Source: Poseidonibacter antarcticus (GTDB taxonomy: Bacteria; Campylobacterota; Campylobacteria; Campylobacterales; Arcobacteraceae). From it: a stretch of 33,582 nucleotides of DNA. The stretch is taken from the NCBI RefSeq assembly GCF_003667345.1, contig NZ_RCWF01000017.1:1-33582 (forward strand), read 5' to 3'. The notes below the pieces were generated by a model. That model saw only the letters and a list, made by a program, of their open reading frames with translations, was not told the DNA's origin and ran no database searches. Each line of letters begins with the position of its first letter. Position 1 is the first letter of the stretch. Position numbers and translations under genes: made by a program. Positions 7,897 to 23,483 of this stretch are shown one piece after another.

Positions 7897-8307
7897 ATGT
7901 ATAAAATTAATAATAAAGAATTTGAGTGTTCAGTTGCAGTAACACTTGATATATTTAATGATAAATGGAAATTATTTATTATATGGAATTTATTAGCTCA
8001 AGCAAAGAGATTCAAAGATTTACATGAAATAATTTCAGAAATATCACAAAAAACTTTAACAGTAAAATTAAAAGAATTAGAAGAAAAAAATATTATAAAT
8101 AGAGAAGTTTTTGCACAAGTTCCTCCTAAAGTTGTTTATTCATTAACACCTGCTGGTGAAAGATTAAGACCTTTATTTAAAGATATGTTCTATTGGGGAA
8201 TATCTTATGTAAAAGAACATGGAGAAATTACAAAAGAGACTAAATGTTGTGAAACTGAAGTTTCTAAAAAAATTGGATGTGAAATAGATAAAGATTTTTT
8301 AAACTAA
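7897..8307 (+). CDS. HxlR-family (DUF24) winged-helix regulator
   Basis: Protein of 136 aa with the HxlR layout: a conserved cysteine near the N-terminus (FECSVAVTLDIF, Cys11), then NDKWKLFIIWNLL, the recognition region FKDLHEIISEISQKTLTVKLKELEEKNII, the wing VPPKVVYSLTPAGERLRPLF, and a C-terminal helix. The family senses electrophiles, quinones, diamide or aldehydes, often by that N-terminal cysteine, and usually represses nitroreductases, quinone reductases or similar. An unusual C-terminal extension carries three more cysteines (KCCETEVSKKIGC), which could add redox or metal responsiveness (inference). The gene converges on and slightly overlaps the MocA-like gene. The operator at 7827 and its twin at 24344 suggest it controls itself and the nitroreductase. 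Confidence 0.9.
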   Translation: MYKINNKEFECSVAVTLDIFNDKWKLFIIWNLLAQAKRFKDLHEIISEISQKTLTVKLKELEEKNIINREVFAQVPPKVVYSLTPAGERLRPLFKDMFYWGISYVKEHGEITKETKCCETEVSKKIGCEIDKDFLN

Positions 8308-8891
8308 ACCATATTATTTAAAAGATTTAAATAATCCTTTTTTGTATCAATATCTATTGAGTATTTATCATCCAAAGGTATAAAATCCAAAGGATTTTCT
8401 TCTAAGATATTTCTTGCACCCTTATCACCTTTTAACTGTTTTAACATAGAATAATATTTATTTGGAAATATCGAAGGGACAGCAAATTTATTTTGGTATT
8501 TAGAACATATTATTATATCTTCATTCTCTTCTGATTTTTTAATTAATTTTAAATAATGACTTAAAGGAATCAAAGGTTGATCACTTAGCATAATCAAAAC
8601 TTTATTTGATTTTTCTAGCTTAGATATTCCATAGGATAATGAAGACCCCATTCCTTCTTTATAATTTGGATTTATTTCTATTTTTATTGGAAAGTCTTTT
8701 ATTTTATCTTTTATTTTATCACTATTATAACCTAGCACAACAATTACATTCGAGCTAATTTTCAAAGCATTTCCAAGTGCAATTTCAATTAAAGTTTCAT
8801 TTCTAATCTTTAGTAATTGTTTACTTTCACCTAAACGAGATGAACTTCCAGCTGCTAAGATTAATACTGCTAAATTATTAGATTTTTCCAT
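8304..8891 (-). CDS. MocA/MobA-like molybdenum cofactor nucleotidyltransferase
   Basis: Protein of 195 aa with the MobA-like NTP-transferase fold: LAVLILAAGSSSRLGESKQLL (about residues 7-27) is the nucleotide-binding loop, MGSSLSYGI and LIMLSDQPL are the internal signature with the Mg-binding Asp, and GDKGARNIL follows. In the molybdenum hydroxylase family, MocA makes the cytosine dinucleotide form of Moco (MCD), and MobA the guanine form. The position as the last gene of the iorAB-xdhC operon supports a MocA role for the enzyme encoded upstream; the exact nucleotide is inference. Its start overlaps the xdhC stop by 14 nt, and its end overlaps the convergent HxlR gene by 4 nt. Confidence 0.85.
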   Translation of the reverse strand: MEKSNNLAVLILAAGSSSRLGESKQLLKIRNETLIEIALGNALKISSNVIVVLGYNSDKIKDKIKDFPIKIEINPNYKEGMGSSLSYGISKLEKSNKVLIMLSDQPLIPLSHYLKLIKKSEENEDIIICSKYQNKFAVPSIFPNKYYSMLKQLKGDKGARNILEENPLDFIPLDDKYSIDIDTKKDYLNLLNNMV

Positions 8892-9768
8892 TTTTCCTAG
8901 CTTCTATTTGTGCGCATATTGAAAGAGCTATTGATTCGTGAGTTATTCCACCAATATCAAAACCAACAGGAGCAAAAAATCTTTTATCATTTTGAAGATT
9001 AAACTTTTCTATTTTCTTTTGCATATTCTTTTTATTTCCTAAAATTCCAATATATTCTACACTTGAACTAAGTAAAGCTTTCAAATATGTATCATCTGTT
9101 ATTGGAGAATGACTTAAAATAACACAAGCATCAAAACAGTTTAAATCTTTTTCTAAAATATCTTCAAGTTTTTCTAATTTTATTAAATTATTCGCATCTT
9201 TTACATATTCATTTTTCATATTAATATCAATAACTGTAGTTTCCCAAGCCATTAAATTAGCCATTTGAACTAAAGATGTTACATGAGAACCTGAACCAAA
9301 AATCAATAAAGAATAAGGCTTTTGAATTTTTTGATAAAATATATTATTTTCAAGTTTTGTTTCACAATCTATATCAGATATTTCAAAACTATCATCTAAA
9401 ATATTACGACATAAAGTCTTTCCAAAATTTTTTAGACATAATCCTAAAGCCAAATAATCTTCATCATAAAAAAAAGGCTGAATAAAATACTTACTAATAC
9501 CATGACCTGAGTTTTTATCTTTTGGTATGTTTTCAAAATAAACAGATTTTTGTGATTCTAATGTAGTTTTTGCTAACGCTAGAATTTCATTATGTAAAGA
9601 AGGACTTCCTAAAACACCTATAAACTCACCCTTTGAGTTTATAAGTATCATATTTCCTTTCTTTGCATAAGTAGAACCTATTGTTTCAATAACACTAGCT
9701 CCTACAATATCTAAACCTTCACTTCTAGAATTTTCTATAAATTCTAAATACTTTTTATTACTAAACAA
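8878..9768 (-). CDS. XdhC/CoxI-family molybdenum enzyme maturation factor
   Basis: Protein of 296 aa. The N-terminal XdhC/CoxI domain (about 1-120) holds VETIGSTYAKKGNMILINSKGEF-type strands, although its usual SGGC motif is replaced by GSPSLHNEI. The Rossmann-like C-terminal domain begins at about 152 with LLIFGSGSHVTSLVQMA and includes VILSHSPITDD, EYIGILGNKKNMQKKIEKF and the closing PVGFDIGGITHESIALSICAQIEA. XdhC proteins insert sulfurated Moco into xanthine dehydrogenase-family enzymes. It lies 6 nt after the large catalytic subunit gene and overlaps the MocA-like gene, so all act on the same enzyme. The degenerate first motif is worth noting, because the conserved cysteine of XdhC is absent there. 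Confidence 0.87.
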   Translation of the reverse strand: MFSNKKYLEFIENSRSEGLDIVGASVIETIGSTYAKKGNMILINSKGEFIGVLGSPSLHNEILALAKTTLESQKSVYFENIPKDKNSGHGISKYFIQPFFYDEDYLALGLCLKNFGKTLCRNILDDSFEISDIDCETKLENNIFYQKIQKPYSLLIFGSGSHVTSLVQMANLMAWETTVIDINMKNEYVKDANNLIKLEKLEDILEKDLNCFDACVILSHSPITDDTYLKALLSSSVEYIGILGNKKNMQKKIEKFNLQNDKRFFAPVGFDIGGITHESIALSICAQIEARKNGKI

Positions 9769-9774
9769 ATTATA

Positions 9775-11907
9775 TTAAACCATTTTTATTGGCATTGATG
9801 TATATAGTTTTCCACTTGCATCAAAAATTGCATTTGCAACAGCGGCTAAGATAGGAGGAGTTCCAGGCTCACCAATCCCACCAATTTTTGCACCTGAATT
9901 TATAATACTTACTTCAATATCAGGAGCATCTGAAATTCTAGTAACTGTATAATCATAGAAATTACTTTGAACAGTTGCACCATCTTTAATAGTAATTTCA
10001 CTGCTTAGTAGTGTCGCAAGTCCAAAGTTAATAGAACTAATCATTTGATTTTCAACATTTTGAGGATTAAAAGCAAATCCACAATCAATAGAACACCAAA
10101 CTTTTTCAACTTTGAAGTCATTTTTTGTAACTCGTACTTTTGCAATTTGAGCACAAATACTTCCAAATGATTCAACGATAGCAACACCGTATCCTACATT
10201 TTCTTCTTTTTTTCTATTTTTCCAATCTGCTTTTAAAGCCACATCATCAAGTAAATTTATAAATCTTTTATTTGTTAACATAGATTTTCTATACTCAATT
10301 GGATCTTTTTTTGCAATAAATGCTGCTTGGTCTATACTACATTCAACTGTTTGAGCAGTTTGTGTATGACCAACTGATCTCCACCAAAGTACAGAAATTG
10401 GAGATTCCATAGTATAAGCTTGCATATTATGACTATTTATATCATAAGGATGTGTAGCTAGTCCTTCTTGTTGTGCACCATCAACTCCATCTTTGTACAA
10501 CATTGCAAAAGGTGAACCTTTGAAAATAGCTTGACTTGCAACTTTTGCATCAAAAGCAGTAATATCACCATGTTCATCTAAAGCTAATTTAACTTTATTT
10601 TTATATTTTGGTCTATAGTTTCCAAGTTTAATATCATCTTCTCTAGTCCAAAGTGTAAGAATTGGATAACCTTCATCTTTTGCTACAAAAAGCCCTTCTA
10701 CTGCAAAATCCATATTTATAGCACCACGTCTACCAAAACCTCCACCTAAATATGGAGTATTATAAGTAATATCTTCTGCTTTTACACCTAAAATTTTTAA
10801 TGCTGCACCAAAAGCTAAAGTTTGAGATTGAGATGTTGACCATAAAATTGCTTTTCCATCTTTATGATGTGCTGCAAAACTTAAAGGTTCCATTGGTGCA
10901 TGAGCTAAAAATGGAAAATCATAATCAAGTTCTATTACATTTGAAGCTTCTTTAAATGCTTTTACACTATCTCCATCTTTTCTCATAGATGCACCCTCTT
11001 TTTTCATTGCATCTTCATACTGCTTATCCATATCTTCAGTACTTATTTTTGCAAATTCACCTAAATCCCAATCAACTTTGATTTCATCTAAAGCAGTTTT
11101 TGCGATATACCAAGTATCTGCAATTACAGCTATTCCTGATGGAATTTGTTTTACTTTTATAACACCAACTTTTTTCTGTGCTTTACTTGCATCAAAGCTT
11201 TTAATCTTTGCGCCAAATACTGTAGGATGTAAAACTGCTGCATATTTTAAACCATCAACTCTTACATCTATTCCAAAATCTGCTTTTCCTGTAACTTTTG
11301 CTAATGCTTCTTTGGGATGTCTTGAATGTGGTTTTCCTATTATTTTACAATCTTTTAAATCTTTTATTTTAGGATCACTAGGAACTTTTATTGAAGCTAA
11401 ATCAACTACAAATTCTCCAAAAGGAAGTTCTTCTTTTGTTCTTTTATTTATAAGCTTTGAATCTTTTGTTTCAACATCATAGGCTCTTACTTTCCATTTT
11501 TTTGAAGCTGCTTGTTTTAACATTGTATTCAATACAGCACCAATTTTTCTCATTTCTAACTGTTTCGCAATAATTGAACTTGAACCACCTGTAATCATCA
11601 AAGGACCATAAAAATGATTATAAACAGGTGCAACTTGAGCACCTTTGAAGTTAATTTCTTCCCAATTAACATTTAATTCTTCTGCAATACACATAGCCAA
11701 AGTTGTATAAGTACCCTGACCCATTTCAACTTGTCCAAAAATAAAGTTAATTGTATTATCAGATTTGATTTCTACAAAAGCATTTGGTTGTAAACTTGAC
11801 TCTTTTTGTGTTATGTCTTGGGCTCTTGATTTACTTGGAATATAAAAACCAATAACAAAAGCAGAAGTAGCAAGCGAACTTGTTTTTAAAAAATCTCTTC
11901 TTTTCAT
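9775..11907 (-). CDS. Tat-exported molybdopterin-binding large subunit, IorB-like molybdenum hydroxylase
   Basis: Protein of 710 aa, in the range of isoquinoline 1-oxidoreductase beta-like subunits. It opens with a twin-arginine signal (MKRRDFLKTSSLATSAFVIGF), so it should be folded with cofactor in the cytoplasm and moved to the periplasm. Moco motifs are visible: GQVEMGQGTYTTLAMCIAEE near the N-terminus, GGGFGRRG in the middle, and GGIGEPGTPP near the C-terminus with the likely catalytic Glu680. The small 2Fe-2S subunit starts the operon and has no signal of its own, so it would travel with this subunit. The members of this group oxidise aldehydes or N-heterocycles; the substrate cannot be read from sequence. 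No cytochrome c subunit, which often completes such enzymes, is encoded nearby. Confidence 0.92.
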   Translation of the reverse strand: MKRRDFLKTSSLATSAFVIGFYIPSKSRAQDITQKESSLQPNAFVEIKSDNTINFIFGQVEMGQGTYTTLAMCIAEELNVNWEEINFKGAQVAPVYNHFYGPLMITGGSSSIIAKQLEMRKIGAVLNTMLKQAASKKWKVRAYDVETKDSKLINKRTKEELPFGEFVVDLASIKVPSDPKIKDLKDCKIIGKPHSRHPKEALAKVTGKADFGIDVRVDGLKYAAVLHPTVFGAKIKSFDASKAQKKVGVIKVKQIPSGIAVIADTWYIAKTALDEIKVDWDLGEFAKISTEDMDKQYEDAMKKEGASMRKDGDSVKAFKEASNVIELDYDFPFLAHAPMEPLSFAAHHKDGKAILWSTSQSQTLAFGAALKILGVKAEDITYNTPYLGGGFGRRGAINMDFAVEGLFVAKDEGYPILTLWTREDDIKLGNYRPKYKNKVKLALDEHGDITAFDAKVASQAIFKGSPFAMLYKDGVDGAQQEGLATHPYDINSHNMQAYTMESPISVLWWRSVGHTQTAQTVECSIDQAAFIAKKDPIEYRKSMLTNKRFINLLDDVALKADWKNRKKEENVGYGVAIVESFGSICAQIAKVRVTKNDFKVEKVWCSIDCGFAFNPQNVENQMISSINFGLATLLSSEITIKDGATVQSNFYDYTVTRISDAPDIEVSIINSGAKIGGIGEPGTPPILAAVANAIFDASGKLYTSMPIKMV

Positions 11908-11908
11908 A

Positions 11909-12361
11909 TTACACCTCAGCTCTTGCAGCTTTTATAGCTGTTTTTATTTTATTGTATGTTCCACATCTACAAATATTTCCATTCATAGAAGAAAGAATCT
12001 CACTATCACTTGGTTTTGGATTTGCTTTTAGCAATCCTGCTGCATTCATAATTTGTCCAGATTGGCAATATCCACATTGAACAACATCTTCTTGAATCCA
12101 AAATTTTTGAAGTTTTTGAACAGTTTTATCCTCTGTTGTTTCAATAGTTGTGATTTTTTTATTTTCAAGTGAAGAAATAGCAGTTGAACAAGCTCTTATA
12201 GCCTCGCCATCTACTAATACAGTACATGCTCCACATTGTCCAACTCCACAGCCAAACTTTGTACCTGTTAGATTTAAGTTATCTCTTAATACCCATAGAA
12301 GTGGAGTATTTGTATCTTCTATATCTATATCATAAATTTTTTCATCAATAGTTATTTTCAT
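11909..12361 (-). CDS. 2Fe-2S small subunit of the molybdenum hydroxylase (IorA-like)
   Basis: Protein of 150 aa with both clusters of this family. The plant-type ferredoxin cluster is CGVGQCGACTVLVDG with a fourth cysteine at about 58. The second cluster, in the helical domain, is CGYCQSGQIM and NICRCGTY. It transfers electrons from the Mo centre of the 9775 product. The ATG at 12361 follows AAAAGGAATAAAAAACTT. It is separated from the large subunit gene by only 1 nt and leads the four-gene operon iorA-iorB-xdhC-mocA. The 127-bp upstream gap is AT-rich and probably holds the operon promoter; readthrough from the rraA gene is also possible. Confidence 0.93.
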   Translation of the reverse strand: MKITIDEKIYDIDIEDTNTPLLWVLRDNLNLTGTKFGCGVGQCGACTVLVDGEAIRACSTAISSLENKKITTIETTEDKTVQKLQKFWIQEDVVQCGYCQSGQIMNAAGLLKANPKPSDSEILSSMNGNICRCGTYNKIKTAIKAARAEV

Positions 12362-12488: not shown

Positions 12489-12971
12489 TTAAAGAAGTTC
12501 TTCTGTACTTACTATAATTCCATCTTCATCTAAATATACATAATCCCCATCATTAAAAGTAACTCCTCCAAAGCTAAGTTGAACAGCTCTAGATGAACTT
12601 GTTTTTTCAAAATTTCTTAAAGGACAAGTTCCAAATGCATAAAGCGCTACATCAATATTTCGTGTATATGCAGTATCTCTTACATAACCATTTAATATTA
12701 TTCCTGCCCAATTGTTCTTTTCAGCAAATGCCATTAGTTTATCTCCTACAACACCATAAAAGAACTTAGCATTTTCAACAACAACTATTCTTCCTTCCCC
12801 ATCTTCATCTCGTAAAAGTTCTAATAATCTCCAATTACTTTTATCAAGTTTTATTGTTACTATTTTTCCAAAAGATTTTTTTCTACCACCATAATTTTTA
12901 TAATCAGATGATAATACTTGTATTTTCTTATCTGTATTATCATCACATAAATCTGCTACATCAAAATTCAT
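12489..12971 (-). CDS. RraA-family protein, possibly an HMG/CHA-type aldolase
   Basis: Protein of 160 aa with the RraA fold: N-terminal VADLCD, central GVVGDKLMAFAEKNNWAGIILNGYVRD, and C-terminal FGGVTFNDGDYVYLDEDGIIVS. The family contains both E. coli RraA (an RNase E inhibitor) and 4-hydroxy-4-methyl-2-oxoglutarate/4-carboxy-4-hydroxy-2-oxoadipate aldolases. The aldolases carry the GxxGD and R-D motifs that bind metal and substrate, and both are present here (Gly73-Asp77, Arg98-Asp99); as I recall, E. coli RraA has R-Q at the latter place. With a GalD/PrpF-type isomerase and tricarboxylate transporter genes next door, an aldolase or oxaloacetate decarboxylase role is more attractive than RNA-decay control. 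It is 33 nt after the porin gene and probably on the same transcript, so under the regulatory element at 14306. Confidence 0.83.
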   Translation of the reverse strand: MNFDVADLCDDNTDKKIQVLSSDYKNYGGRKKSFGKIVTIKLDKSNWRLLELLRDEDGEGRIVVVENAKFFYGVVGDKLMAFAEKNNWAGIILNGYVRDTAYTRNIDVALYAFGTCPLRNFEKTSSSRAVQLSFGGVTFNDGDYVYLDEDGIIVSTEELL

Positions 12972-13004
12972 ACTATTCCTTTTTTATTTCTTTAATATAA
13001 ATTA

Positions 13005-14222
13005 TTAAAATTTATAAATTAGTTTTGTTCTTAATTCATTTTTTTCTTTTGATTCATTACCATTCCCATAATCATATATTGTATATTCAGCAGATAATGC
13101 TAAATCTTTTAAAGCCCCAGAGAATTTATATTTTAAAGCAAAATAAGTTTGTTCTAAATCATTCTTTTCTGCAATAGCATCACTTTGTGTATATTTAATT
13201 TTTGTAGTTAAATTACCAAATTTTTTAGAAGCTCCAAGTTGCCAAGTATCTGTTCCTGCTGTATAATTCGCAGTTGTCGTTGTTGCTGAAGTAAATGAAG
13301 CAGTTGCTTTTTCTCCAATACCTCTATTTACATTTCCATCATCATTCGTTGATGTATATGAAGCATGCAAGTTAATACCAACTAGAGTAATTCCCACTTT
13401 ATATCCAAAAAATGAGCTGTCATCTATTGTATTATCATCATAATTTGAGTTATAATATTGAGCAGCTACAAAAGATTTATACTCTCCACTAAATTTATAT
13501 TTTGCATCAATATATAAATCCGCTACCTCATCAATAAAATCTACATAATGAGCTTGTATACTTAAATTTTTAATAGAATTATTCTTAATATATAAAGAAA
13601 TAGCACCATCTGTACCAATTTTATTAAATTCACCAACATCTCCAATATTTGTATCTATATTAGTAAAAGATGCTGAATTTGTTGTTTTTGTAAGCCCATC
13701 AGTTCTAGTTTGATATTTAGTAACTTTCCCTAATGATATTAATGTATTTGGGATATCAGTATTAGATAAGAAATAGCCTTCAAAAGATTCTTTTATAAGT
13801 CTTGAACTTGAGCCATAAATTAACGGTAAAGAAATAAACTGTCTTCCACCTTTAAAAGTTGTATTCTTATACTTATAATTTACATAAGCTTCTGATAAAA
13901 CTGATCCTGAAGCATTCATTGTTTTATTTTGTTTTCCAGCATCATCATCAATTGAAGTAGTTGATGATGATTGAAATGTTACTCCTAAACTTAGCCCTTT
14001 ATAACTATTTGTTACATAGCCTAACTTTATACCATTTGCCCAGACACTATTATCTGATATACTCGCAGAATCATATGATTCATCAAAATAATAAGATTTT
14101 AGTTCGCCTTTTACTTTCCCATTAGTAAAAGCTTCACTTAAACTTTCAGCTGCAAAACTTTGTGAGCTTAGACCTGCTAATAAAAATGCTGCTACTAAAC
14201 TTCTTTTTGTTAATTTTTTCAT
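13005..14222 (-). CDS. Outer-membrane porin, Opr/OprD-like family of Campylobacterota
   Basis: Protein of 405 aa with a clear signal peptide (KKLTKRSLVAAFLLAGLSSQSFA, cleavage about residue 24) and a beta-barrel composition: alternating strands rich in Tyr, Ser and Asn, and a C-terminal strand ending in Phe (LRTKLIYKF), the usual signal for outer membrane insertion. The region KGELKSYYFDESYD ... WANGIKLGYVTNSYKGLSLGVTF is typical of Opr family porins. OprD-like porins take up organic acids and amino acids, and in some bacteria they are specific for tricarboxylates or aromatic acids. It is divergent from the TctC gene, and each has its own copy of the 19-nt element, so it is probably the outer-membrane gate of this uptake system. 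Confidence 0.88.
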   Translation of the reverse strand: MKKLTKRSLVAAFLLAGLSSQSFAAESLSEAFTNGKVKGELKSYYFDESYDSASISDNSVWANGIKLGYVTNSYKGLSLGVTFQSSSTTSIDDDAGKQNKTMNASGSVLSEAYVNYKYKNTTFKGGRQFISLPLIYGSSSRLIKESFEGYFLSNTDIPNTLISLGKVTKYQTRTDGLTKTTNSASFTNIDTNIGDVGEFNKIGTDGAISLYIKNNSIKNLSIQAHYVDFIDEVADLYIDAKYKFSGEYKSFVAAQYYNSNYDDNTIDDSSFFGYKVGITLVGINLHASYTSTNDDGNVNRGIGEKATASFTSATTTTANYTAGTDTWQLGASKKFGNLTTKIKYTQSDAIAEKNDLEQTYFALKYKFSGALKDLALSAEYTIYDYGNGNESKEKNELRTKLIYKF

Positions 14223-14305
14223 TTTTCATCCTATATATTTTTTTTCTAATCAACTATTCTTACATATAATTGTTAGCTTGACTGAAAGAATATTATCATT
14301 GAATT

Positions 14306-14324
14306 CTGTCATCAAACTTGCAAA
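14306..14324 (-). promoter_or_regulatory. Regulon element copy 1 (porin, rraA)
   Basis: TTTGCAAGTTTGATGACAG on the minus strand, 83 nt before the porin start. It contains the direct repeat TGCAAG-N5-TGACAG, i.e. two half-sites 11 bp apart, as usual for OmpR/PhoB-type regulators. GATAAT follows 8 nt later and could be the -10 box. Confidence 0.8.
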
Positions 14325-14381
14325 AAAATCTTAAAAATAGCAATAAAGTAGCATTCTTTTATCTTCTATAAATTCTTTTTT

Positions 14382-14400
14382 ACTGCAAGGTTCATGACAG
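14382..14400 (+). promoter_or_regulatory. Regulon element copy 2 (first TctC)
   Basis: ACTGCAAGGTTCATGACAG, 46 nt before the TctC start codon, followed after 8 nt by GATAAT. Same repeat architecture as the other four copies. Confidence 0.8.
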
Positions 14401-14446
14401 AATTCAATGATAATCTTTCATCATAAACTTAATAAAAGGATTTAAG

Positions 14447-15526
14447 ATGAAAATAGCAAAGAGACTTTTAATATCAACATTAGCAATAGGAATGTTAACA
14501 AGTATTGTAAGTGCAAAAGAAGTTAGTTTCAAGGGAAAAACTATTGAATGGATTATGCCATATAAAGCAGGTGGTGGTACAGATAAATGGGGAAGATTTT
14601 ATGCTCCATTATTATCACAGAACTTACCAGGTAATCCTGTTGTTGTAATTAAGAATATGCCAGGTGGCGGTTCTACAAAAGGTGCAAACTTTTTTGCAAA
14701 ACGTGCATCAAAAGATGGGTTAACAATTTTTGCATCATCAGCATCAACTCAAATTCCATTTTTATTAGGTGATAAAAGAGTTAGATACCAATATAAAGAT
14801 TGGAATGCAGTATTAAGTTCTCCAACAAATGGAATTATTTATGTTTCTTCTAAATTAGGTGTTAATAGTATTGATGATTTAGATAAATTAAAATCAGAAA
14901 AACTTAAATTTGGTTCACAAGGTGCTACATCAATGGATTTAGTTCCTTTATTAGCTTTCCATTTATTAAATATTAAGACACAACCTGTATTTGGAATGAA
15001 AGGTAAAAAATCTACTAGACTAGCTTTCTTAAGAGGTGAAACAAATATTGACTTCCAATCATCATCTTCTTATCTTAAAAATGTATTACCTGCACAAAAA
15101 GAAGGAAGAGCAGTTCCTTTATTTGCCTTTGGTACTTTAGATGAAAATGGTGATTTACAAAGAGATCCAACTTTCCCAAATTTACCTCATTTTGGTGAAG
15201 TATATGAAAAAGTTCATGGTAAGAAACCATCAGGCGAAGCATACAAAGCTTGGAAAACTTTATTTACAGCAAGTTTCCCTTCTCAAAAAATGATTATGTT
15301 ACCAAAAGGTGTTTCCCAAGATGTAATTGAAACATATCAAAATGCGATGAAAAAAATTGTTGCAACTGAAGGTTTTAAAGAAATGAGTAGAATACAGTTA
15401 GGTGATTATAAGCAAACAGTTGGAGCAAAAGCAGATAAATTAAAAGATATTGCAACAAGTGTTAATGATGAAGATAGACAATGGATAAGACACTGGCTTA
15501 CTAAAAACTATAGAGTTAGATTTTAA
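14447..15526 (+). CDS. tctC: TctC/Bug-family periplasmic substrate-binding protein
   Basis: Binding protein of 359 aa for a tripartite tricarboxylate transporter. Signal peptide about 1-23 (RLLISTLAIGMLTSIVSA). The first beta strand and loop IEWIMPYKAGGGTDKWGRFYAPLL is the TctC hallmark that contacts the ligand carboxylate; a second marker is VVIKNMPGGGSTKGANFFAKRASKDG, with SSASTQIPFLLGD near position 100. The protein is some 30 residues longer than most Bug proteins, with the extra length between the lobes (GEVYEKVHGKKPSGEAYKAW). It would bind citrate, aconitate, tricarballylate or another di/tricarboxylate and deliver it to the TctAB permease encoded 200 nt downstream. A hairpin terminator follows, so much of the strong expression may stop here, giving an excess of binding protein. 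Confidence 0.92.
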   Translation: MKIAKRLLISTLAIGMLTSIVSAKEVSFKGKTIEWIMPYKAGGGTDKWGRFYAPLLSQNLPGNPVVVIKNMPGGGSTKGANFFAKRASKDGLTIFASSASTQIPFLLGDKRVRYQYKDWNAVLSSPTNGIIYVSSKLGVNSIDDLDKLKSEKLKFGSQGATSMDLVPLLAFHLLNIKTQPVFGMKGKKSTRLAFLRGETNIDFQSSSSYLKNVLPAQKEGRAVPLFAFGTLDENGDLQRDPTFPNLPHFGEVYEKVHGKKPSGEAYKAWKTLFTASFPSQKMIMLPKGVSQDVIETYQNAMKKIVATEGFKEMSRIQLGDYKQTVGAKADKLKDIATSVNDEDRQWIRHWLTKNYRVRF

Positions 15527-15551
15527 ACCAATTAAATTTCATTTTTTCTTT

Positions 15552-15584
15552 AACCACTTTATCTTTTAAGATAAGGTGGTTTTT
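15552..15584 (+). terminator. Rho-independent terminator after TctC
   Basis: Stem AACCACTTTATCTT / AAGATAAGGTGGTT with one G-T pair and a tight loop, followed by TTTTT. It separates tctC from the permease gene, which has its own regulatory element. Confidence 0.88.
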
Positions 15585-15644
15585 ACTATATATCCCTTTT
15601 TCTCGATACTCTTCAAGTTAAATTATTTATAAATTTTCTTCTTT

Positions 15645-15663
15645 TTTGCAAGTTTCATGACAG
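15645..15663 (+). promoter_or_regulatory. Regulon element copy 3 (TctAB permease operon)
   Basis: TTTGCAAGTTTCATGACAG, 65 nt before the chosen start of the permease gene. The following 17 nt resemble those after copy 2 (TTxAATGxTAATCTT), so similarity extends beyond the 19-nt core. Confidence 0.8.
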
Positions 15664-15695
15664 CCTTGAATGTTAATCTTCTTATATAAAATATA

Positions 15696-15713
15696 GAAGT
15701 GTTTAATCACTTC
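15696..15713 (+). promoter_or_regulatory. Leader hairpin before the permease ribosome site
   Basis: GAAGTG-TTTAAT-CACTTC forms a 6-bp stem with a 6-nt loop that ends 2 nt before AAAAGGA, the ribosome site of the permease gene. It could affect translation or mRNA stability; this is inference. Confidence 0.4.
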
Positions 15714-15728
15714 ACAAAAGGATTAATT

Positions 15729-17729
15729 ATGGCATTAGAAGCTCTTATGAGTGCATTTAATGAACTTATGCAAGTTCAGCACATGCTTTATTTATTAGGT
15801 GGGGTATTTTTAGGAATTTTAGTTGGAATTCTTCCTGGACTTGGAGGAATTGTTGGGTTCTCAATTATGTTACCTTTTCTTTATGGAATGGATCAAACTT
15901 CAGCATTAGCAATGTTAATTGGTATGGTTGCGGTTATTCCAACATCTGACACATTTACATCAGTTCTAATGGGGATACCTGGTTCTTCTGCTTCTCAAGC
16001 AACAGTTTTAGATGGTTACCCTATGTCTAAAAAAGGTGAAGCTGCACGTGCTTTAGGAGCAGCTTTTTCTGCTTCTTTAGTTGGTGGACTTCTAGGAGCA
16101 ATTATTCTTTCAGCATTTATTGTATTTGCAAGAGATTTAATTTTAAAATTAGGTTCTGCTGAACTATTTATTTTAGGAATCTTTGGTCTTAGTATGGTTG
16201 GTGTTTTAAGTGGCAAATCACTTTTCAAAGGATTCTTAGCAGCTGGAGTTGGATTATTATTAGGTTCAATTGGATCTGCACCTGCTACGGGTGAATTTAG
16301 AATGACAATGGATAGTTACTATTTATATGATGGAATTAAACTTGTTATTTTAGGTCTTGGAGTTTATGCGGTACCTGAAATTATTGGATTACTTGTTGAG
16401 AATAAAAAGATTTCAAAAGCTGAAAAACTTGGTGGTTCTTGGATTCAAGGGATTAAAGATACATGGGCATCAAGATGGATAGTTGCGCGTTGTGCTCCTC
16501 TTGGAGCAATGATTGGGGCAATTCCAGGTCTTGGTGGAAGTGTTGTTGATTGGATTGCTTATGGTCATGTTGTTCAAACTTCAAAAGATAAATCACAATT
16601 TGGTAAGGGTGATGTAAGAGGTGTTATTGCTCCTGAGTCTGCTAATAATGCTAAAGAAGGTGGAGGTTTAGTACCAACACTTTTATTTGGTATTCCAGGA
16701 AGTGGTTCAATGGCAGTATTCTTAGGTGGATTAGTAATATTAGGTATTGAACCTGGACCTGGTATGGTTGATGAAAATTTAGAAATTTCATATATCATTA
16801 TTTGGTCACTTGCTTTAGCAAATGTAGTTGGGACTGGAACTTGTCTTTTATTATCAAATAAGATTTCAAAAATTACAACTATTCCTTATGGGTATGTTGC
16901 TCCATTTATGTTGATGATTATTTTCTTTGCTGCATTACAAGCTACTAGAAGTTTAGAAGATTTAATGCTTTTAATTGCAATTGGTGCGTTAGGAACTTTA
17001 TTTAAATACTTTGATTGGCCAAGACCTGCTTTATTAATTGGTTTTGTATTAGCTGGAACTATTGAAACATATTATTATCAAGCAGTTCAGTTTTACTCAT
17101 GGGATATGCTACAAAGACCTGGAGTTATCATTTTAATTGTATTAATGGTTTTATCTATTGGATTAAGTGTATTTTTCCAAAAAAGAAGTGATAAAAAAGA
17201 AAAATTAGAAAAAGAAGCTAGAGGTGAAGTTGAAGTAAAGAGTGATCATAACTATACATTTATAACTGGTGAACTTTTATTTACTTGGGGAATAATAGCT
17301 TTTGCAATATTTGCAATCATTGATTCAGTTCCACATGATTTTCTTGGTGGTATTTTTCCAATTGTAATTTCATCTTTAATGATACTTTTTGGAATATTCT
17401 TAACAATGCAATTAACATCAAGAGAAAAACAGCAAGATGTGTTAAATGTTGCATTAACTGAGAATGGACAATTAACTGCATCTTGGATGGAAACATGGAA
17501 AAACTTCTTAATCTTACCAGTATTTTTATTAGGAACATGGATTCTTGGTTTTATCCCATCATTAGCAATTTTATTTGTAATGATAATTAGAACAAAAATG
17601 AAATCATCTTGGTTGAAAATAGCAATTATTACAAGTATTGCACTTGGGTTCTTACTATTTGTTAGTAATGCAATGACATTACATTTACCTGCAGGATTAA
17701 TTGCAGATACATTTTTTGGAGTAGAATAA
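15729..17729 (+). CDS. tctA: TctA-TctB fusion permease of a tripartite tricarboxylate transporter
   Basis: I start the protein at ATG 15729 (666 aa), because AAAAGGATTAATT precedes it exactly as AAAAGGA precedes the tctC start; a GTG 30 nt upstream lies inside a hairpin. Residues about 1-495 are TctA: GILVGILPGLGGIVGFSIML, GMVAVIPTSDTFTSVLMGIPGSSASQATVLDGYP, the second repeat APLGAMIGAIPGLGGSVVDWIAYG, and VPTLLFGIPGSGSMAVFLGGL. After a charged linker (about 485-505) comes a four-helix TctB (DUF1468) domain, FITGELLFTWGIIAFAIFAIID to the C-terminus. TctA and TctB are usually separate genes, so the fusion fixes them at 1:1. The complex uses an ion gradient to import the solute held by TctC. The stop overlaps the next start (TAATG). 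Confidence 0.92.
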   Translation: MALEALMSAFNELMQVQHMLYLLGGVFLGILVGILPGLGGIVGFSIMLPFLYGMDQTSALAMLIGMVAVIPTSDTFTSVLMGIPGSSASQATVLDGYPMSKKGEAARALGAAFSASLVGGLLGAIILSAFIVFARDLILKLGSAELFILGIFGLSMVGVLSGKSLFKGFLAAGVGLLLGSIGSAPATGEFRMTMDSYYLYDGIKLVILGLGVYAVPEIIGLLVENKKISKAEKLGGSWIQGIKDTWASRWIVARCAPLGAMIGAIPGLGGSVVDWIAYGHVVQTSKDKSQFGKGDVRGVIAPESANNAKEGGGLVPTLLFGIPGSGSMAVFLGGLVILGIEPGPGMVDENLEISYIIIWSLALANVVGTGTCLLLSNKISKITTIPYGYVAPFMLMIIFFAALQATRSLEDLMLLIAIGALGTLFKYFDWPRPALLIGFVLAGTIETYYYQAVQFYSWDMLQRPGVIILIVLMVLSIGLSVFFQKRSDKKEKLEKEARGEVEVKSDHNYTFITGELLFTWGIIAFAIFAIIDSVPHDFLGGIFPIVISSLMILFGIFLTMQLTSREKQQDVLNVALTENGQLTASWMETWKNFLILPVFLLGTWILGFIPSLAILFVMIIRTKMKSSWLKIAIITSIALGFLLFVSNAMTLHLPAGLIADTFFGVE

Positions 17730-18796
17730 TGAATGATTTAAAAAGAATAAAATGTATGATATATAGATCAGGTACTTCAAAAGGTGCATATTTTTTAGAT
17801 AATGATTTACCAAAAGATACACAAGAAAGACACGAACTAATTGCAAAGATTATGGGAAGTGAAGATATTAGACAAATTGATGGAATTGGAGGGGCAACTT
17901 CTGTAACAACAAAAGTTGCTATTGTCTCTGCATCAAAAAGAGAAGGAATAGATTTAGATTATAAATTTATACAACCAAATATTGGTGTGGCTTCAGTAGA
18001 TGATAAACCAACTTGTGGAAATATTTTAACTGCAATTGGAGCCTTTGGTTTAGAAAAAGGTCTTGTTTCAATTGATGATGGAATAACAAATGTAAATGTG
18101 TATGATGTTAATACAGGTGCCACTATTACACAAACTATTAAAACACCAAATAGAACTGTTCAATATCATGGAGATATGAAAATTGCTGGAGTTCCTGGAA
18201 GTGCAGCACCTATTGAAATGTTTTTTAAAAATATCACTGGTGGAAAGACCGGTAGTTATTTACCTACAGGGAATAACTATGATTTATTTAATGGTATTAA
18301 AGCTACATGCTTAGATATATCTATGCCAGTTGTTTTTATTAATGCGTCAGATATGAATATTACAGGGTATGAAACTCCAAGTGAACTTGATTCAAACAAA
18401 AAACTATTTGAAGAATTAGAAAATATAAGAGAACAAGCTTCACATAAAATGGGTCTAGGAAGTGCAAGAGGAAATGTTATTCCAAAAATTGCAGTAATCT
18501 CAAAAGCAATTAATGATGGTGATATTAATATTAGATATTTTACACCCTCAACTGCACATCCTGCACTTGCTGTTTCTGCTGGTTTTTGTGTAGCTACTGG
18601 TTCTTTTATTGAAGGAACTTTACTAAATGAATTAAACCCTAAAAAATTAGAAATAGGAGATTATATTGTTAAAATTGAGACTCCTTCTGGAACAATTGAT
18701 GTTGGAGTTAATTTTCCAACTTTAGATATTAATGATGTTGAAGGTAAAACAACAAGAACTGCAAGATTACTTTTAGATGGTGAGGTATATATTTAA
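17729..18796 (+). CDS. PrpF-family isomerase, closest in form to 4-oxalomesaconate tautomerase (GalD)
   Basis: Protein of 355 aa with the PrpF double-domain layout of diaminopimelate-epimerase fold. Visible marks: MIYRSGTSKGAYF at the N-terminus, QIDGIGGATSVTTKVAI (about 49-65), PTCGNILTAIG with Cys96 as probable catalytic base, LPTGN, ITGYETPSEL, and the end TARLLLDGEVYI. The spacing and ends match GalD-type tautomerases closely as I remember them. Other family members isomerise 2-methylaconitate (PrpF) or aconitate (trans to cis). All act on unsaturated tricarboxylates, which fits its translational coupling to a tricarboxylate permease. The precise substrate is open: oxalomesaconate, trans-aconitate and methylaconitate are the candidates. 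Confidence 0.87.
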   Translation: MNDLKRIKCMIYRSGTSKGAYFLDNDLPKDTQERHELIAKIMGSEDIRQIDGIGGATSVTTKVAIVSASKREGIDLDYKFIQPNIGVASVDDKPTCGNILTAIGAFGLEKGLVSIDDGITNVNVYDVNTGATITQTIKTPNRTVQYHGDMKIAGVPGSAAPIEMFFKNITGGKTGSYLPTGNNYDLFNGIKATCLDISMPVVFINASDMNITGYETPSELDSNKKLFEELENIREQASHKMGLGSARGNVIPKIAVISKAINDGDINIRYFTPSTAHPALAVSAGFCVATGSFIEGTLLNELNPKKLEIGDYIVKIETPSGTIDVGVNFPTLDINDVEGKTTRTARLLLDGEVYI

Positions 18797-18798
18797 AA

Positions 18799-19548
18799 AT
18801 GGACTTTTTACCTATATCCCTTGATATATATGAACTTCTCATTTTAATGGGAAGTTGTTTTTTAGGTGCAATAATTTCAACTACAGTTGGAACAGGTGGT
18901 GGTCTGTTAGTAATTGGAGGAATGAGTTTAATTCTTCCTATTACTGCATTACTATCTATTCATGCAAGTGTTCAAGCTGGTTCAGGAATGATTAGAGCTT
19001 TTTTGTTTAGAAATACTTTTTTAAAGAAATTCTTTTTGATATTCTTTTTTGGTTCACTTATTGGTTTTTTCTTTTCTACTTTAACTTTAATCTCTCTAGA
19101 CGAAAATATTTTAAAATTACTCTTAGGTTTGGGAATAGTAATTTTAACACTACTTCCAAATCTAAAAATTGATAATATCTCAAATCTAACTATTTTATTT
19201 TTTGGAATTGTGACAGGTTTTTTAACTATGTTTATTGGTGTAGTTGGACCTATTTTAGGAATTCTTCTAGCATCAATGTTAAAAGATAGACTTTTAGTTG
19301 TAGGAACTTTAGCTTGGTGTATATCTTTTCAAAATTTTAGTAAAGCAGTGATTTTTTCTCAAGTTGGGTTTGACTATTTGCCATGGCTTAGCTTAATTAT
19401 AATATTAGTTATTATCTCATATTTAGGAACAATAGTAGGCAGAAAAATATTATATAAAACAAATAATAAAGTTTTTGAAAAAGTTTTAAAAATTGTTATA
19501 CTATTATTAGGTAGTAAATTAATTATAGAATCTTTACTTCATCTATAA
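18799..19548 (+). CDS. TauE/SafE-family (TSUP) membrane permease
   Basis: Protein of 249 aa with about seven or eight membrane helices and the two TSUP repeats: the first begins LLILMGSCFLGAIISTTVGTGGGLLVIGG, the second LTILFFGIVTGFLTMFIGVVGPILGILL. TauE/SafE proteins move anions such as sulfite, sulfonates or small organic acids, often as exporters. It follows the PrpF-family gene by 2 nt and so belongs to the TctAB-isomerase transcript. A possible role is export of a product or counter-anion, or a second import route; neither can be decided from sequence. The next gene has its own regulatory element, which begins right at its stop codon. Confidence 0.87.
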   Translation: MDFLPISLDIYELLILMGSCFLGAIISTTVGTGGGLLVIGGMSLILPITALLSIHASVQAGSGMIRAFLFRNTFLKKFFLIFFFGSLIGFFFSTLTLISLDENILKLLLGLGIVILTLLPNLKIDNISNLTILFFGIVTGFLTMFIGVVGPILGILLASMLKDRLLVVGTLAWCISFQNFSKAVIFSQVGFDYLPWLSLIIILVIISYLGTIVGRKILYKTNNKVFEKVLKIVILLLGSKLIIESLLHL

Positions 19549-19611: not shown

Positions 19612-20574
19612 ATGAAAAATTTTATCATACTTTTCTTCTTTTTTAACAGTTTAATATTAGCTGATACTTATCCAAATAAACAAATAGAATTTGTTGTTGG
19701 ATTAGGGCAAGGTGGTAGTGCTGATAGAATGACTAGAAATATGGCTATATTCTTAGAAAAAGAGCTTAAAACTTCAATAAAAATTACAAATAAAAAGAAC
19801 AAAGCTTCTTTAGAAGCAGCAAATTATGTATTAAAACAACCAAGTGATGGATATACAGTTTTCTCTTCTACTTTCTTACCTTATCTTCCTAATTCAATTT
19901 TAAGTGGTCAAGCTAAATATAGTTTAGATGATTTTGAAATCATTAACTTGCAATGGTTTGATTATGATTTTATTGCTGTAAATAAGACTTCAGAGTTTAA
20001 TTCAGTTCTTGAAATAATAAATCATATAAAAAACAATCCTAATACTTTAAGTGCTGGGGTGATAAATAAATCAAGTGGGCATTTATTATTAAAATTACTT
20101 CTGAAAAAATTTGATATTCCTTTTGAAAATATTGATATAAAAGTTTTTAATGGTGGTAAGGCAGTAAGAACTGCTTTATTAAACTCTGAAATAGACATTC
20201 TTATTACAGCAGCGCAAGGAAGTGAAGCATATAGAGATAAGATTAAAGCTCTTGCTATATCCTCTGCCAAAAGATCAAGAAGATGGGATGCTCCAACATT
20301 AAACGATGCAATTAATGATAGTAAAATTGTAATGCCTATAATTAATGGTCCAACAAGAGGATTTGCTGTTTCAAAAGAATTTAAAATTAAATATCCAAAG
20401 AGATTTAAAATTTTAAAAAATGCGATTAAATAAACTCTATCAAAAAGAAGAACTCAACGTTATCTAAGATCTAAAAAAATAGGTTATTCTTGGCTTGGTT
20501 CAAAACAATCTACAAAAATTTTAAATAAATCATATGAAACATTTAAAAAATATAACTATCTTTTAACTAATTAA
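19612..20574 (+). pseudogene. Second TctC-like binding protein, interrupted by an in-frame stop
   Basis: The open part (19612-20433, 273 aa) has a signal peptide (MKNFIILFFFFNSLILA) and the TctC start IEFVVGLGQGGSADRMTRNMA, followed by SLEAANYVLKQPSDGYTVFS and a second lobe with INGPTRGFAVSKEF. A TAA at 20431-20433 stops it, but the same frame continues for 46 codons to a second TAA at 20572-20574: TLSKRRTQRYLRSKKIGYSW and LGSKQSTKILNKSYETFKKY. That is the normal helix-rich C-terminus of TctC proteins, and the full length (320 codons) is the family norm. So one nonsense change separates it from an intact gene. Whether the truncated 273-aa form folds, or the stop is read through, is unknown. 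The promoter element is intact, which suggests a recent event. Confidence 0.85.
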
Positions 20575-21958
20575 TTTCTTCTTCTTTATGATTAAAGACT
20601 ATAGATATTTTTAAACCATTTTCATTTGAAGCCAAAACCTTAGCTTGATGTAAAACAGCAATTTGTTTTACAATGCTAAGACCTAATCCTGAACCTTGTT
20701 TTGAGGAATCAACTCTATAGTATCTTTCAAAAATAGATTTTAAGTTCTGTTTTGGAACTCCTTTTCCTTCATCTTTGATATTTAACCAAACTGTATTATT
20801 ATGTCTTTCTAAGCTTAAAGTAATAGTTCCAATTGGATTCCCATTCTCATCAATAGCATAGTGTATAGTATTGTTGATAATATTATCCATCATACTTTCT
20901 AAAAGTATTGAATCTGTTTGAATAAAAACTTCTTCATCTATATTCTCAAAAGCAAATTCAAATCCTTTTGCGTAAACTCTTGGTGCAGTTCTTAAACAAT
21001 ATTCTTTGCATAGTTGATTTAAACTTCGTTTTTCAAAACGCTTTAAATTAATTGTATTTGGATTTGTTTTTGCATATAAAAGTAGTTGCTCTGTTATATG
21101 TGTCATATTATTTAACAAAGAATTTAATGCAATGAAATCTTCACTGTTTTTTTCATAATGTAATTGGATTTTCACTTTCATTTCAGCTAATGGAGTTCTT
21201 AATTGATGTGAAATATCTGAGTTAAACTGTTCAATATAATCAATAGTATCTCTACTTCTACTTAGTAAAATATTAATACTGTTTACAATATCTTCTAATT
21301 CTTTTGGGGCATTAAAAACTAAAGGTTCTAAATCTCTATCATCTCTCTTTTTTATTATCTTTTTTAAATTGTTTAAGGGTTTTAACCCTTTATTAACAGC
21401 AATAATAGTGATTGTAATGGTAAAAAATATTACTATTGCCATTATTATAAACATAAGAGTTAAAACATAATTTATATTTTCTTCTCTTTCTTCTGTCGTT
21501 TCCCCAATTGTAATATATGCTGTGTGTATTTTTCCTGCACTATTTAATGTAGTTTTATATGATACTGCTCTTAATTTTACTCCATCATATGTAAGATTGT
21601 AAAATCTTTTTTTTCGATTAATTAGTATTCTTTTATTAAAAAGTAAGCCATGTCCTATTAATAATTCACCTTCTTCATTTACTACGGAATAATATACTAG
21701 TCCTTGTTCATGATTTGAAAGTAAATCAATAGAAAAGTTTGGGAGATCAATAAAAAGTTTTGAATTTTCAATTCCTATATTTTCTTTTATACTTTGTGCT
21801 GTTGCAAAAAGTCTATTATCAAAAAAACTATTTACTTTTTCTTGTAGATTTAAATATATATAAATGAAAAGAATAACTGATAATAAGGCAAAAGGGAAAA
21901 TTAACCATTTTATTAAACGAGATTTTATTGAGATTGTATTTTTATAAGTACTTTCCAT
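20567..21958 (-). CDS. tctE: TctE-like sensor histidine kinase
   Basis: Protein of 463 aa. Membrane helices at about 15-37 and 163-188 enclose a periplasmic 2CSK-type sensor domain (about 38-162), as in TctE and its relatives for tricarboxylates. A HAMP-like linker (NKGLKPLNNLKKII) leads to the H-box FNSDISHQLRTPLAEMK with His251. ATP-binding motifs are DNIINNTIHYA, IKDEGKGVP, IFERYYR and GSGLGLSIVKQIA. It starts 1 nt after the TctD-like gene and ends convergently on the second TctC gene, overlapping its restored reading frame by 8 nt. With the 21960 product it probably senses the transported carboxylate in the periplasm and drives the five-site regulon. Confidence 0.9.
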   Translation of the reverse strand: MESTYKNTISIKSRLIKWLIFPFALLSVILFIYIYLNLQEKVNSFFDNRLFATAQSIKENIGIENSKLFIDLPNFSIDLLSNHEQGLVYYSVVNEEGELLIGHGLLFNKRILINRKKRFYNLTYDGVKLRAVSYKTTLNSAGKIHTAYITIGETTEEREENINYVLTLMFIIMAIVIFFTITITIIAVNKGLKPLNNLKKIIKKRDDRDLEPLVFNAPKELEDIVNSINILLSRSRDTIDYIEQFNSDISHQLRTPLAEMKVKIQLHYEKNSEDFIALNSLLNNMTHITEQLLLYAKTNPNTINLKRFEKRSLNQLCKEYCLRTAPRVYAKGFEFAFENIDEEVFIQTDSILLESMMDNIINNTIHYAIDENGNPIGTITLSLERHNNTVWLNIKDEGKGVPKQNLKSIFERYYRVDSSKQGSGLGLSIVKQIAVLHQAKVLASNENGLKISIVFNHKEEEIN

Positions 21959-21959
21959 C

Positions 21960-22616
21960 TTAACTCATCATATAACCTAATCCTCGAACTGTTTTAAGAT
22001 TTATAGAAGACCCAAGTTTCTTTCTTAGTCTTGAGATATATGTCTCAACAGCTGTTGGATTAAACTCATCATCAACTGTAGTGATATGTTCAACTATGTT
22101 TTCTTTACTTACAATTGCATTTAAGTTTTGAACTAAATATTCAAAAATTGTTAATTCTCTTTTACTTAAATCAATATTTTCATTATTTTTCATCAAAATA
22201 CGAGTTTGGGAATCAAACTTTAAATCATTATATTTTATAATATTACTAATTTGATTATTACTTCTTCGTAAAAGAGCTTGGACTCTTGCAATAACTTCAT
22301 CAAGTTCAAAAGGTTTACATAAATAATCATCCGCACCTGTATCAAGTCCAAGAATTCGTTGATCTAATTTATCTCTTGCAGATATAACTAGAATTGGCAG
22401 ATTTTGTTGAGATTTTCTTAACTTCTTTATAATCTCAATACCATCAATTCCAGGTAGTCCTAAATCTAATATAAGTAAATCATATGTTGATGTTTCTAAA
22501 GTATAAAGACCTTCTTCTCCGTCATAAAAAACATCAGCAATAAATCCTGAATTTTTTAGTTTTTTATGTATACCATCTGCTAAAGTTTCATTATCTTCTA
22601 AAATCAATATTTTCAT
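21960..22616 (-). CDS. tctD: TctD-like OmpR-family response regulator
   Basis: Protein of 218 aa. The receiver has acidic E7/D8, phospho-acceptor Asp51 (LLILDLGLPG), Ser79 in VISAR and Lys101 in YLCKPF. The winged helix covers about 125-218 with DLSKRELTIFEYLVQN, the recognition helix in PTAVETYISRLRKKLG, and the wing LKTVRGLGYMMS. OmpR-family regulators bind tandem direct repeats spaced about 10-11 bp, which is the architecture of the shared 19-nt element found at five promoters of this cluster, including that of its own operon. The gene is 18 nt downstream of the Usp gene and directly precedes the kinase gene. Confidence 0.92.
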   Translation of the reverse strand: MKILILEDNETLADGIHKKLKNSGFIADVFYDGEEGLYTLETSTYDLLILDLGLPGIDGIEIIKKLRKSQQNLPILVISARDKLDQRILGLDTGADDYLCKPFELDEVIARVQALLRRSNNQISNIIKYNDLKFDSQTRILMKNNENIDLSKRELTIFEYLVQNLNAIVSKENIVEHITTVDDEFNPTAVETYISRLRKKLGSSINLKTVRGLGYMMS

Positions 22617-22634
22617 AATATAATTCTATCATAA

Positions 22635-23483
22635 TTAATAAGACATAAAAATTGGTAAAGTTGATTTTTCAAGTAAATATCTAGTAGCTCCACCAAACAT
22701 AAGTTCTTTAAGTCCCTTATGTCCATAAGCCCCAGCTACTATTAAATCAAAGTTTCCATCTAAAGCTGTATCTAATAAAGCCTGACCTGGAATCCTTGTA
22801 GTTTTAACAATATCATAACTTGCATCAATACCATGCAATTTTAAATAATTAATTAGACTTGTCATAATTTCATGATCTTCTACATATTCAGGAGAAGATA
22901 CAATATGAACTCTTTGTGCTTTCTTTAAAAGTTCAATAGATGAAGTAATAGCACGTGAAGCCTCAGTTGAATTATTCCAACCAATAATAATTGAGTCCAG
23001 CGAAAATTTTCTCATTATTCTTGGAAACATCAATACTGATTTTCCACTTTTAAGTACGGCATTTTCAAATGTGGCTGTTGTAACACCAGCAGGAGGAGCT
23101 GCTGCTATAACTAAATCACAAAACTTTGATTCCTGCTCAATAAGAGTACTTCGTAGACCTTCTCTTATTTTAAGATATGCAAATGCTTTTTCTTTTAAAG
23201 CTCCGCTTGATATATTAATATCAACTTCCAAAGCAACTTTTTCGAAAAGTGCCTGAAGTTCATTATTATCTTCTTCATACTTACTATCTACTACTTCATC
23301 AATTTTGTTTAAAATATCTCTAGGGATAGACATTGTCTTATACATACTAATATTTGATTTTAAACCACACTGTAATATTTCTAAGTTTGTTTCAAAAGTT
23401 TTTGCTATTAATAGTGCCGCATATAATCTTTCTTCTAATTCATCTCCCCCACCAATAGGGAAAAATATTTTCTTATAATTCAT
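22635..23483 (-). CDS. Tandem-domain universal stress protein
   Basis: Protein of 282 aa with two Usp domains, about 1-140 and 158-282. The first keeps the strand KKIFFPIGGGDE and ends SVLMFPR; the second contains the ATP-binding pattern GAYGHKGLKELMFGGATRYLL (G-x2-G-x9-G-T). Ribosome site AGAAGG lies 8 nt before the ATG. It is the first gene of a transcript with tctD and tctE and carries regulon element copy 5 in its promoter. An Usp heading a two-component operon for carboxylate uptake is unusual; it might adjust the response to energy state through ATP binding (inference). Confidence 0.87.
   Translation of the reverse strand: MNYKKIFFPIGGGDELEERLYAALLIAKTFETNLEILQCGLKSNISMYKTMSIPRDILNKIDEVVDSKYEEDNNELQALFEKVALEVDINISSGALKEKAFAYLKIREGLRSTLIEQESKFCDLVIAAAPPAGVTTATFENAVLKSGKSVLMFPRIMRKFSLDSIIIGWNNSTEASRAITSSIELLKKAQRVHIVSSPEYVEDHEIMTSLINYLKLHGIDASYDIVKTTRIPGQALLDTALDGNFDLIVAGAYGHKGLKELMFGGATRYLLEKSTLPIFMSY

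Follow-up and report, generated by a model that had tools for sequence, protein, structure and literature searches.

The window analysed here, a stretch of 33,582 bases that is one complete contig (NZ_RCWF01000017.1) of the 2.9 Mb genome of Poseidonibacter antarcticus (Arcobacteraceae), carries a set of genes encoding a porin, a tripartite tricarboxylate transporter (TTT), a PrpF-family isomerase and an RraA-family protein, and we consider it probable that they form a module devoted to taking up a C6 tricarboxylate of the aconitate/tricarballylate class and bringing it into metabolism. The most likely substrate is trans-aconitate, joined by tricarballylate where the tricarballylate dehydrogenase genes tcuAB are also present. 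The argument is built on what is established here: which genes are present, how they are conserved, the families they belong to, the catalytic residues they keep and their linkage to tcuAB in relatives. The genes and associated elements are laid out as follows:

12489–12971, minus strand: RraA-family protein, 160 residues, short type (family models; motif D77-X20-R98-D99)
13005–14222, minus strand: OprD/Opr-family outer-membrane porin, 405 residues (family models, synteny)
14447–15526, plus strand: TctC1, TTT periplasmic binding protein, 359 residues (weak phmmer matches, fold, identity to annotated TTT proteins)
15552–15581, plus strand: terminator-like hairpin between tctC1 and tctAB, 13-bp stem with T-rich tail (consensus scan only)
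15699–17729, plus strand: TctA-TctB fused permease, a single open reading frame (ORF) of 676 residues from GTG (ORF list, family models)
17729–18796, plus strand: PrpF-family isomerase, 355 residues, K62 and C96 conserved (PF04303, tree, alignment)
18799–19548, plus strand: TauE/SafE-family permease, 249 residues (family model; present in 8 of 9 orthologous loci)
19612–20433, plus strand: TctC2, second TctC-like protein, 273 residues as against 319–320 in orthologues (beside the kinase gene; shortened by an in-frame TAA)
20434–20574, plus strand: remainder of tctC2 past the stop, in frame and resembling orthologues (comparison with orthologues)
20567–21958, minus strand: sensor histidine kinase with a 2CSK_N domain, TctE-type (in 9 of 9 orthologous loci)
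21960–22616, minus strand: response regulator, best NCBIfam model TctD (NCBIfam scan)
22635–23483, minus strand: universal-stress-family (Usp) protein (same place in 9 of 9 orthologous loci)

Two divergent units can be recognized, porin–RraA on the minus strand and TctC1–TctAB–PrpF on the plus strand, the latter extending past PrpF through TauE and TctC2 and being followed by the minus-strand kinase, regulator and Usp genes. The initial annotation had described five of these genes, those for RraA, porin, TctC1, TctAB and PrpF, as a single catabolic module. All five proteins are encoded where it placed them, and its catabolic import module stands, as does tricarboxylate import with aconitate, named there as an alternative candidate; the two directions of transcription, however, rule out one operon, and the module is larger than was reported.

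Drawing on gene context and family knowledge for the ligand, the enzyme reaction, the sensing role of TctC2 and the RraA step, we envisage that the acid would cross the outer membrane through the porin, be bound in the periplasm by TctC1 and be brought into the cell by the fused TctAB. PrpF would then turn trans-aconitate into cis-aconitate by an allylic shift via K62 and C96, and AcnB, which is encoded in the genome and could carry cis-aconitate onward, would feed it into the tricarboxylic acid (TCA) cycle; in relatives equipped with TcuAB, tricarballylate would be oxidised to aconitate first. The TctDE-like pair would turn the system on, perhaps with TctC2 as its periplasmic ligand sensor. 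At the exit, RraA would cleave or decarboxylate a 2-oxo acid, the simplest case being the conversion of oxaloacetate to pyruvate, a step that would let growth on a TCA-cycle intermediate supply biosynthesis.

The isomerase matches PF04303 with 315 bits, and K62 and C96 are invariant across 32 members of the PrpF family, including the genome's own methylcitrate PrpF. They correspond to the catalytic K73 and C107 of Shewanella PrpF, an enzyme that interconverts cis- and trans-aconitate and also acts on methylaconitate (PMC5690661), and TarA and TbrA of Bacillus, which belong to the same family, likewise isomerise cis- and trans-aconitate (PMC11495376). We propose that the window PrpF is a trans-/cis-aconitate isomerase. 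A search of the plasmid collection aimed at TbrA-like proteins returned no Bacillus record among the matches listed.

The arrangement of these genes is not due to chance, given that it recurs in 10 Arcobacteraceae genomes and, for its core, in Alphaproteobacteria. The module is found in 10 of 104 Arcobacteraceae genomes, the source genome included, with PrpF orthologues that are 67–93% identical in the other nine. The order porin (divergent), TctC1, TctAB, PrpF, TauE where present, TctC2, and then the oppositely oriented kinase, regulator and Usp genes is maintained in all nine orthologous loci, some genes having been lost or inserted. A porin 68–84% identical occupies the syntenic place in seven of the nine (L036, L037, L038, L040, L041, L042 and L043), and none was seen in the orthologous loci L039 and L044; a related-locus search of the genome contigs retrieved five orthologous loci only.

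In 3 of the 10 Arcobacteraceae loci (G063, G080 and G042) tcuAB lies within the module, with TcuA scoring 659 bits against a cut-off of 369 in the G080 copy and TcuB 378 against 246.6. According to the title of Lewis and Escalante-Semerena 2006, as listed in PMC10468695, TcuA turns tricarballylate into cis-aconitate. TcuA occurs in only 4 of the 104 family genomes, and three of these four carry tcuAB inside the module. For three TcuA genomes to coincide with the ten module genomes by chance, the probability is p=0.0025 in a calculation that ignores the kinship of the genomes; chance co-occurrence is less likely still because tcuAB is physically inserted in the module.

The same association is seen outside the family. 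When a plasmid collection was searched by tblastn with PrpF, TctC1 and TctAB, we reached Alphaproteobacterial loci in which TctC (44–55% identical), a fused TctAB (45–56%) and PrpF (about 41–44% where measured) follow in series, usually beside a divergent sensor kinase/regulator pair. Six of the nine plasmid loci having PrpF are adjoined by tcuAB or by the start of tcuA (Paracoccus marcusii, Paracoccus alcaliphilus, Thalassospira marina, Gemmobacter fulvus, Pseudosulfitobacter and Pacificitalea), and no ring-cleavage gene is present in the stretches read at the nine, nor in the Arcobacteraceae module loci. Further components recur as well: Usp genes after PrpF in two of these modules, TauE in the Pacificitalea locus and RraA once, in Shinella.

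In the fused ORF, which encodes the only TctA-family protein of the genome, the TctA part scores 399.5 bits against PF01970 (cut-off 28.9) and the C-terminal TctB part 29.0 bits against PF07331, just under the cut-off of 29.1; an in-frame ATG at 15729 is likelier to be its start than the GTG at 15699. TctC1 had no match in Pfam, and is 44–55% identical to annotated TTT binding proteins; with its AlphaFold2 model (mean predicted local distance difference test score 77.9), ranks 1–17 in the PDB are all TctC/Bug proteins. The fold does not allow the ligand of TctC1 to be read, as these neighbours bind terephthalate, malate and oxoadipate. TTT transporters have been reported as carriers of citrate, isocitrate and cis-aconitate (PMC13390454), and in Pseudomonas aeruginosa a porin-TctABC tricarboxylate system is under the control of TctED (PMC10865840), its porin OpdH (OccK5) transporting citrate poorly in vitro (PMC3260308).

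As for control, the response regulator finds its best match in the TctD model (198.4 bits, under the cut-off of 337) and the sensor kinase scores 81.7 bits against 2CSK_N (cut-off 23.2). Since BctC, a binding protein of Bordetella, has the further role of signalling to the kinase BctE (PMC5812351), and since tctC2 adjoins the kinase gene, TctC2 may by analogy be a periplasmic ligand sensor. In the source genome tctC2 is interrupted by an in-frame TAA at 20431–20433, which leaves 273 residues instead of about 320; the 46 codons downstream are intact and still similar to those of orthologues, so that the stop presumably either arose recently or reflects an error in the sequence. The hairpin at 15552–15581 is a possible attenuator, perhaps raising the dose of binding protein. 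A sigma-70 promoter scan gave a number of sites no higher than in shuffled sequence.

The RraA protein poses a separate question, one that is compatible with any substrate: it could be a mere passenger or a regulator of RNA metabolism that stands outside the pathway. Its score against NF006875, the model of the RNase E regulator RraA, is 133.1 bits, just under the cut-off of 136, and in this family sequence models fail to tell enzymes from regulators. As the initial annotation had pointed out, the protein carries GxxGD (residues 73–77) and an R-D pair (R98-D99), which together make up D77-X20-R98-D99. The full D-X20-R-D pattern counts among the catalytic motifs of the RraA family; as a marker of module RraA proteins it had to be rejected, every RraA of the family compared having it. 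E. coli RraA has R-Q where the window protein has R-D, a pair equivalent to the essential Arg-123 and the metal ligand Asp-124 of HMG/CHA aldolase (4-hydroxy-4-methyl-2-oxoglutarate/4-carboxy-4-hydroxy-2-oxoadipate aldolase; PMC5065237). RNase E/G was found in none of 21 genomes, the source and 20 relatives, with positive controls that worked (here and below, absences in the source genome come from single-family searches, family by family), and a role as RNase E regulator is thus unlikely. We regard the protein as a probable enzyme, as had been claimed, judging from its sequence a class II pyruvate aldolase or oxaloacetate decarboxylase whose exact step is deduced from context. Because LigK-type relatives also decarboxylate oxaloacetate (PMC5065237), conversion of oxaloacetate to pyruvate would by analogy be the simplest fit, albeit a guess.

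That RraA genes abound in the family, where a genome has several of them in many unrelated settings, that their orientation beside the module varies, and that in two module loci RraA lies near mfd are all facts that a passenger would explain. On the other hand, in 9 of the 10 loci an RraA gene adjoins that for the porin or for TctC despite at least two sequence lineages, and the Shinella module has an RraA too; a slot that is kept while its occupant differs suggests that the protein functions together with the module. We thus hold a passenger or regulator to be a serious possibility, yet less probable than a part in the pathway. The three RraA-family proteins of the genome are all of the short type. 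The RraA closest to that of the window (83%) is encoded at L047:11378-11860 (G060), next to a genuine GalD/LigK cluster for ring cleavage; that genome has no module.

Several points weigh against aconitate/tricarballylate as the substrate class or against parts of the scheme outlined above. Sequence alone names no ligand for the transporter. The source genome gave no TcuA match at E<=1e-60, so the link to tricarballylate rests on relatives, and the window PrpF is likened to TarA/TbrA through their shared family. Aconitate entry needs no RraA, and the RraA of the window falls in another lineage (98/94) than those of the remaining module loci. Finally, some Alphaproteobacterial neighbours are dehydrogenases of the isocitrate/isopropylmalate, Ldh and D-2-hydroxyacid types, a hint that hydroxylated tricarboxylates are the substrate in some of these lineages.

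This last point leads to what we see as the strongest competing substrate, namely some other C6 tricarboxylate (citrate, isocitrate, hydroxycitrate or a related hydroxy-acid), in which case PrpF would move a double bond of an unsaturated derivative, and the 4-hydroxy-2-oxo acid made from this would be cleaved by RraA. Among the known TTT ligands citrate is the commonest (PMC5812351), and the dehydrogenase neighbours in Shinella, Paracoccus, Thalassospira and Pacificitalea, together with the Shinella RraA, would fit such a longer pathway. However, PrpF would be superfluous for citrate and isocitrate, no such dehydrogenases turned up among the genes recognized next to the Arcobacteraceae module, and tcuAB indicates an unsubstituted propane tricarboxylate skeleton. 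A hydroxy-acid is thus unlikely, though it should be kept in mind.

The initial annotation had favored a different scenario, in which ring-opened 4-oxalomesaconate or 4-carboxy-4-hydroxy-2-oxoadipate (CHA) is imported from other bacteria, PrpF being the GalD/LigU tautomerase and RraA the CHA aldolase. In its favor, the window PrpF scores high on the 4-oxalomesaconate (OMA) tautomerase model NF033377 (399.6 bits), its nearest solved structures are YbhH (6otv), LigU, 3-methylitaconate isomerase and PrpF, and RraA has D-X20-R-D. The premise that ring-cleavage genes are lacking held in a genome search with PF02900, which returned only two matches, both with the 4,5-DOPA-extradiol-dioxygenase as their best model and both below its cut-off. 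Yet 399.6 bits lies below the cut-off of 440, and RraA reaches only 23.5 bits against the LigK model TIGR02798 (cut-off 304.5). Moreover, sibling genomes possess genuine protocatechuate/gallate 4,5-cleavage clusters with LigA/B, LigJ, LigI, LigK and a GalD-type PrpF (L045-L049, with more in L121 and L122). Their PrpF proteins are about 40% identical to that of the window, the one of L045 scores 493.7 bits, over the same cut-off, and their LigK belongs to another, longer kind of RraA-family protein. A tree built from 32 PrpF proteins places all ten of ring-cleavage origin in a single clade (100/99) and leaves the window PrpF and its orthologues outside; some branches are long, and the TTT-linked PrpF proteins are not proven to be one clade. 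At four positions of the alignment the two groups are fixed for different residues, the window having T174, G242, A281 and C287. The OMA-tautomerase model also passes E. coli K-12 YbhH (L137) and TTT/TcuAB-linked proteins (L115, L128 and L129) that lack lig neighbours and lie outside the ring-cleavage clade, for which reason the name "4-oxalomesaconate tautomerase" looks, on sequence grounds, to be applied too widely. With tcuAB instead of lig/gal genes accompanying the module in relatives, we reject ring-cleavage salvage, on account of these gene neighbours as well as of the PrpF tree, the four alignment positions and the type of RraA, and regard it as very improbable.

Least probable of all is the salvage of 2-methylaconitate in a methylcitrate route, also raised at the outset, which has in its favor the PrpF family itself and the activity of the Shewanella enzyme (PMC5690661), but which we reject because the window PrpF reaches just 170.6 bits against the model TIGR02334 (cut-off 440.55) and would be redundant with a stronger second prpF (507 bits) elsewhere in the genome, adjoining ORFs likened by size and order to AcnD, PrpC and PrpB.

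An aconitate/tricarballylate module of this kind is a novel assembly of known parts, the known trans-aconitate/tricarballylate systems using other transporters. The tarRAB/TbrA systems of Bacillus also encode a PrpF-superfamily aconitate isomerase together with a dedicated importer (TarA-TarB), but TarB belongs to the major facilitator superfamily (MFS) and TarR is of LysR type (PMC11495376), whereas the window has a binding-protein-dependent TTT, a porin and a two-component system. The tcuRABC system of Salmonella and Campylobacter fetus (PMC4943207) handles the same substrate class, and its TcuAB recurs in the three Arcobacteraceae modules and several Alphaproteobacterial ones described above; it uses the transporter TcuC, its name set includes neither PrpF nor TTT, and the source genome gave no TcuA match. 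The opdH-tctABC/TctED system of Pseudomonas aeruginosa (PMC10865840) and bctCBA-bctDE of Bordetella (PMC5812351) resemble the window in having a TTT transporter under TctDE-type control, the former with an OprD-family porin as well, but both are citrate systems without an isomerase, while the window has a fused TctAB and a second TctC by the kinase. GalD/LigU with LigK/GalC share the superfamilies, and differ from the window in the clade of PrpF, the type of RraA and the adjoining ring-cleavage genes. Finally, E. coli ybhH-ybhI-ybhJ places a PrpF-family isomerase, YbhH being the nearest solved structure, beside two putative partners, a tricarboxylate transporter and a hydratase; unlike the window module, it has no TctC or TctA-type genes.

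A broader view, which we offer more tentatively, is that Campylobacterota and Alphaproteobacteria share a TTT-type trans-aconitate/tricarballylate assimilation system that has a fused TctAB and a periplasmic sensor protein of its own serving the two-component system, that in Arcobacteraceae it has at its exit an enzyme of the RraA family (an oxaloacetate decarboxylase, or else an aldolase acting on a tricarboxylate intermediate), and that it has been masked by the "4-oxalomesaconate tautomerase" label. A 2024 survey of trans-aconitate systems knew of one importer, of MFS type, and called for the identification of more transporters (PMC11495376). If our reading is true, the module would provide a binding-protein-dependent transport route for trans-aconitate/tricarballylate that is not described in the literature we found. 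An over-applied tautomerase label would mislead pathway reconstruction in Arcobacteraceae and marine Alphaproteobacteria, and the module offers a test case for the role of short RraA proteins in bacteria without RNase E.

Other insertions and neighbours deserve mention. A chemoreceptor of 784 residues lies between porin and TctC1 at L042:4291-6645 and L043:12391-14745 (G019, G021), which suggests chemotaxis toward the same substrate. A secreted alpha/beta hydrolase, which might free the acid from esters, separates TctC1 from TctAB at L040:6253-7365 and L037:11924-13039 (G063, G064), and a PrpD-like protein is inserted in the G042 module locus. L123:5739-13112 (G418) holds a separate TctC-TctB-TctA set in which the genes are unfused and PrpF is more distant; close relatives of TctC2 (50%), the kinase (59%) and the response regulator (75%) of the window adjoin it. 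In the window itself, RraA is adjoined by a molybdenum-hydroxylase set at 8304–12361 comprising MobA, XdhC, a large subunit with a twin-arginine translocation (TAT) signal and a 2Fe-2S subunit. We considered these genes as part of the module and rejected them, since they have no match beside the module in the nine orthologous loci and since the large and Fe-S subunits are encoded a second time (83% and 80% identical) on another contig of the genome (G000:C12, L125:884-3473).

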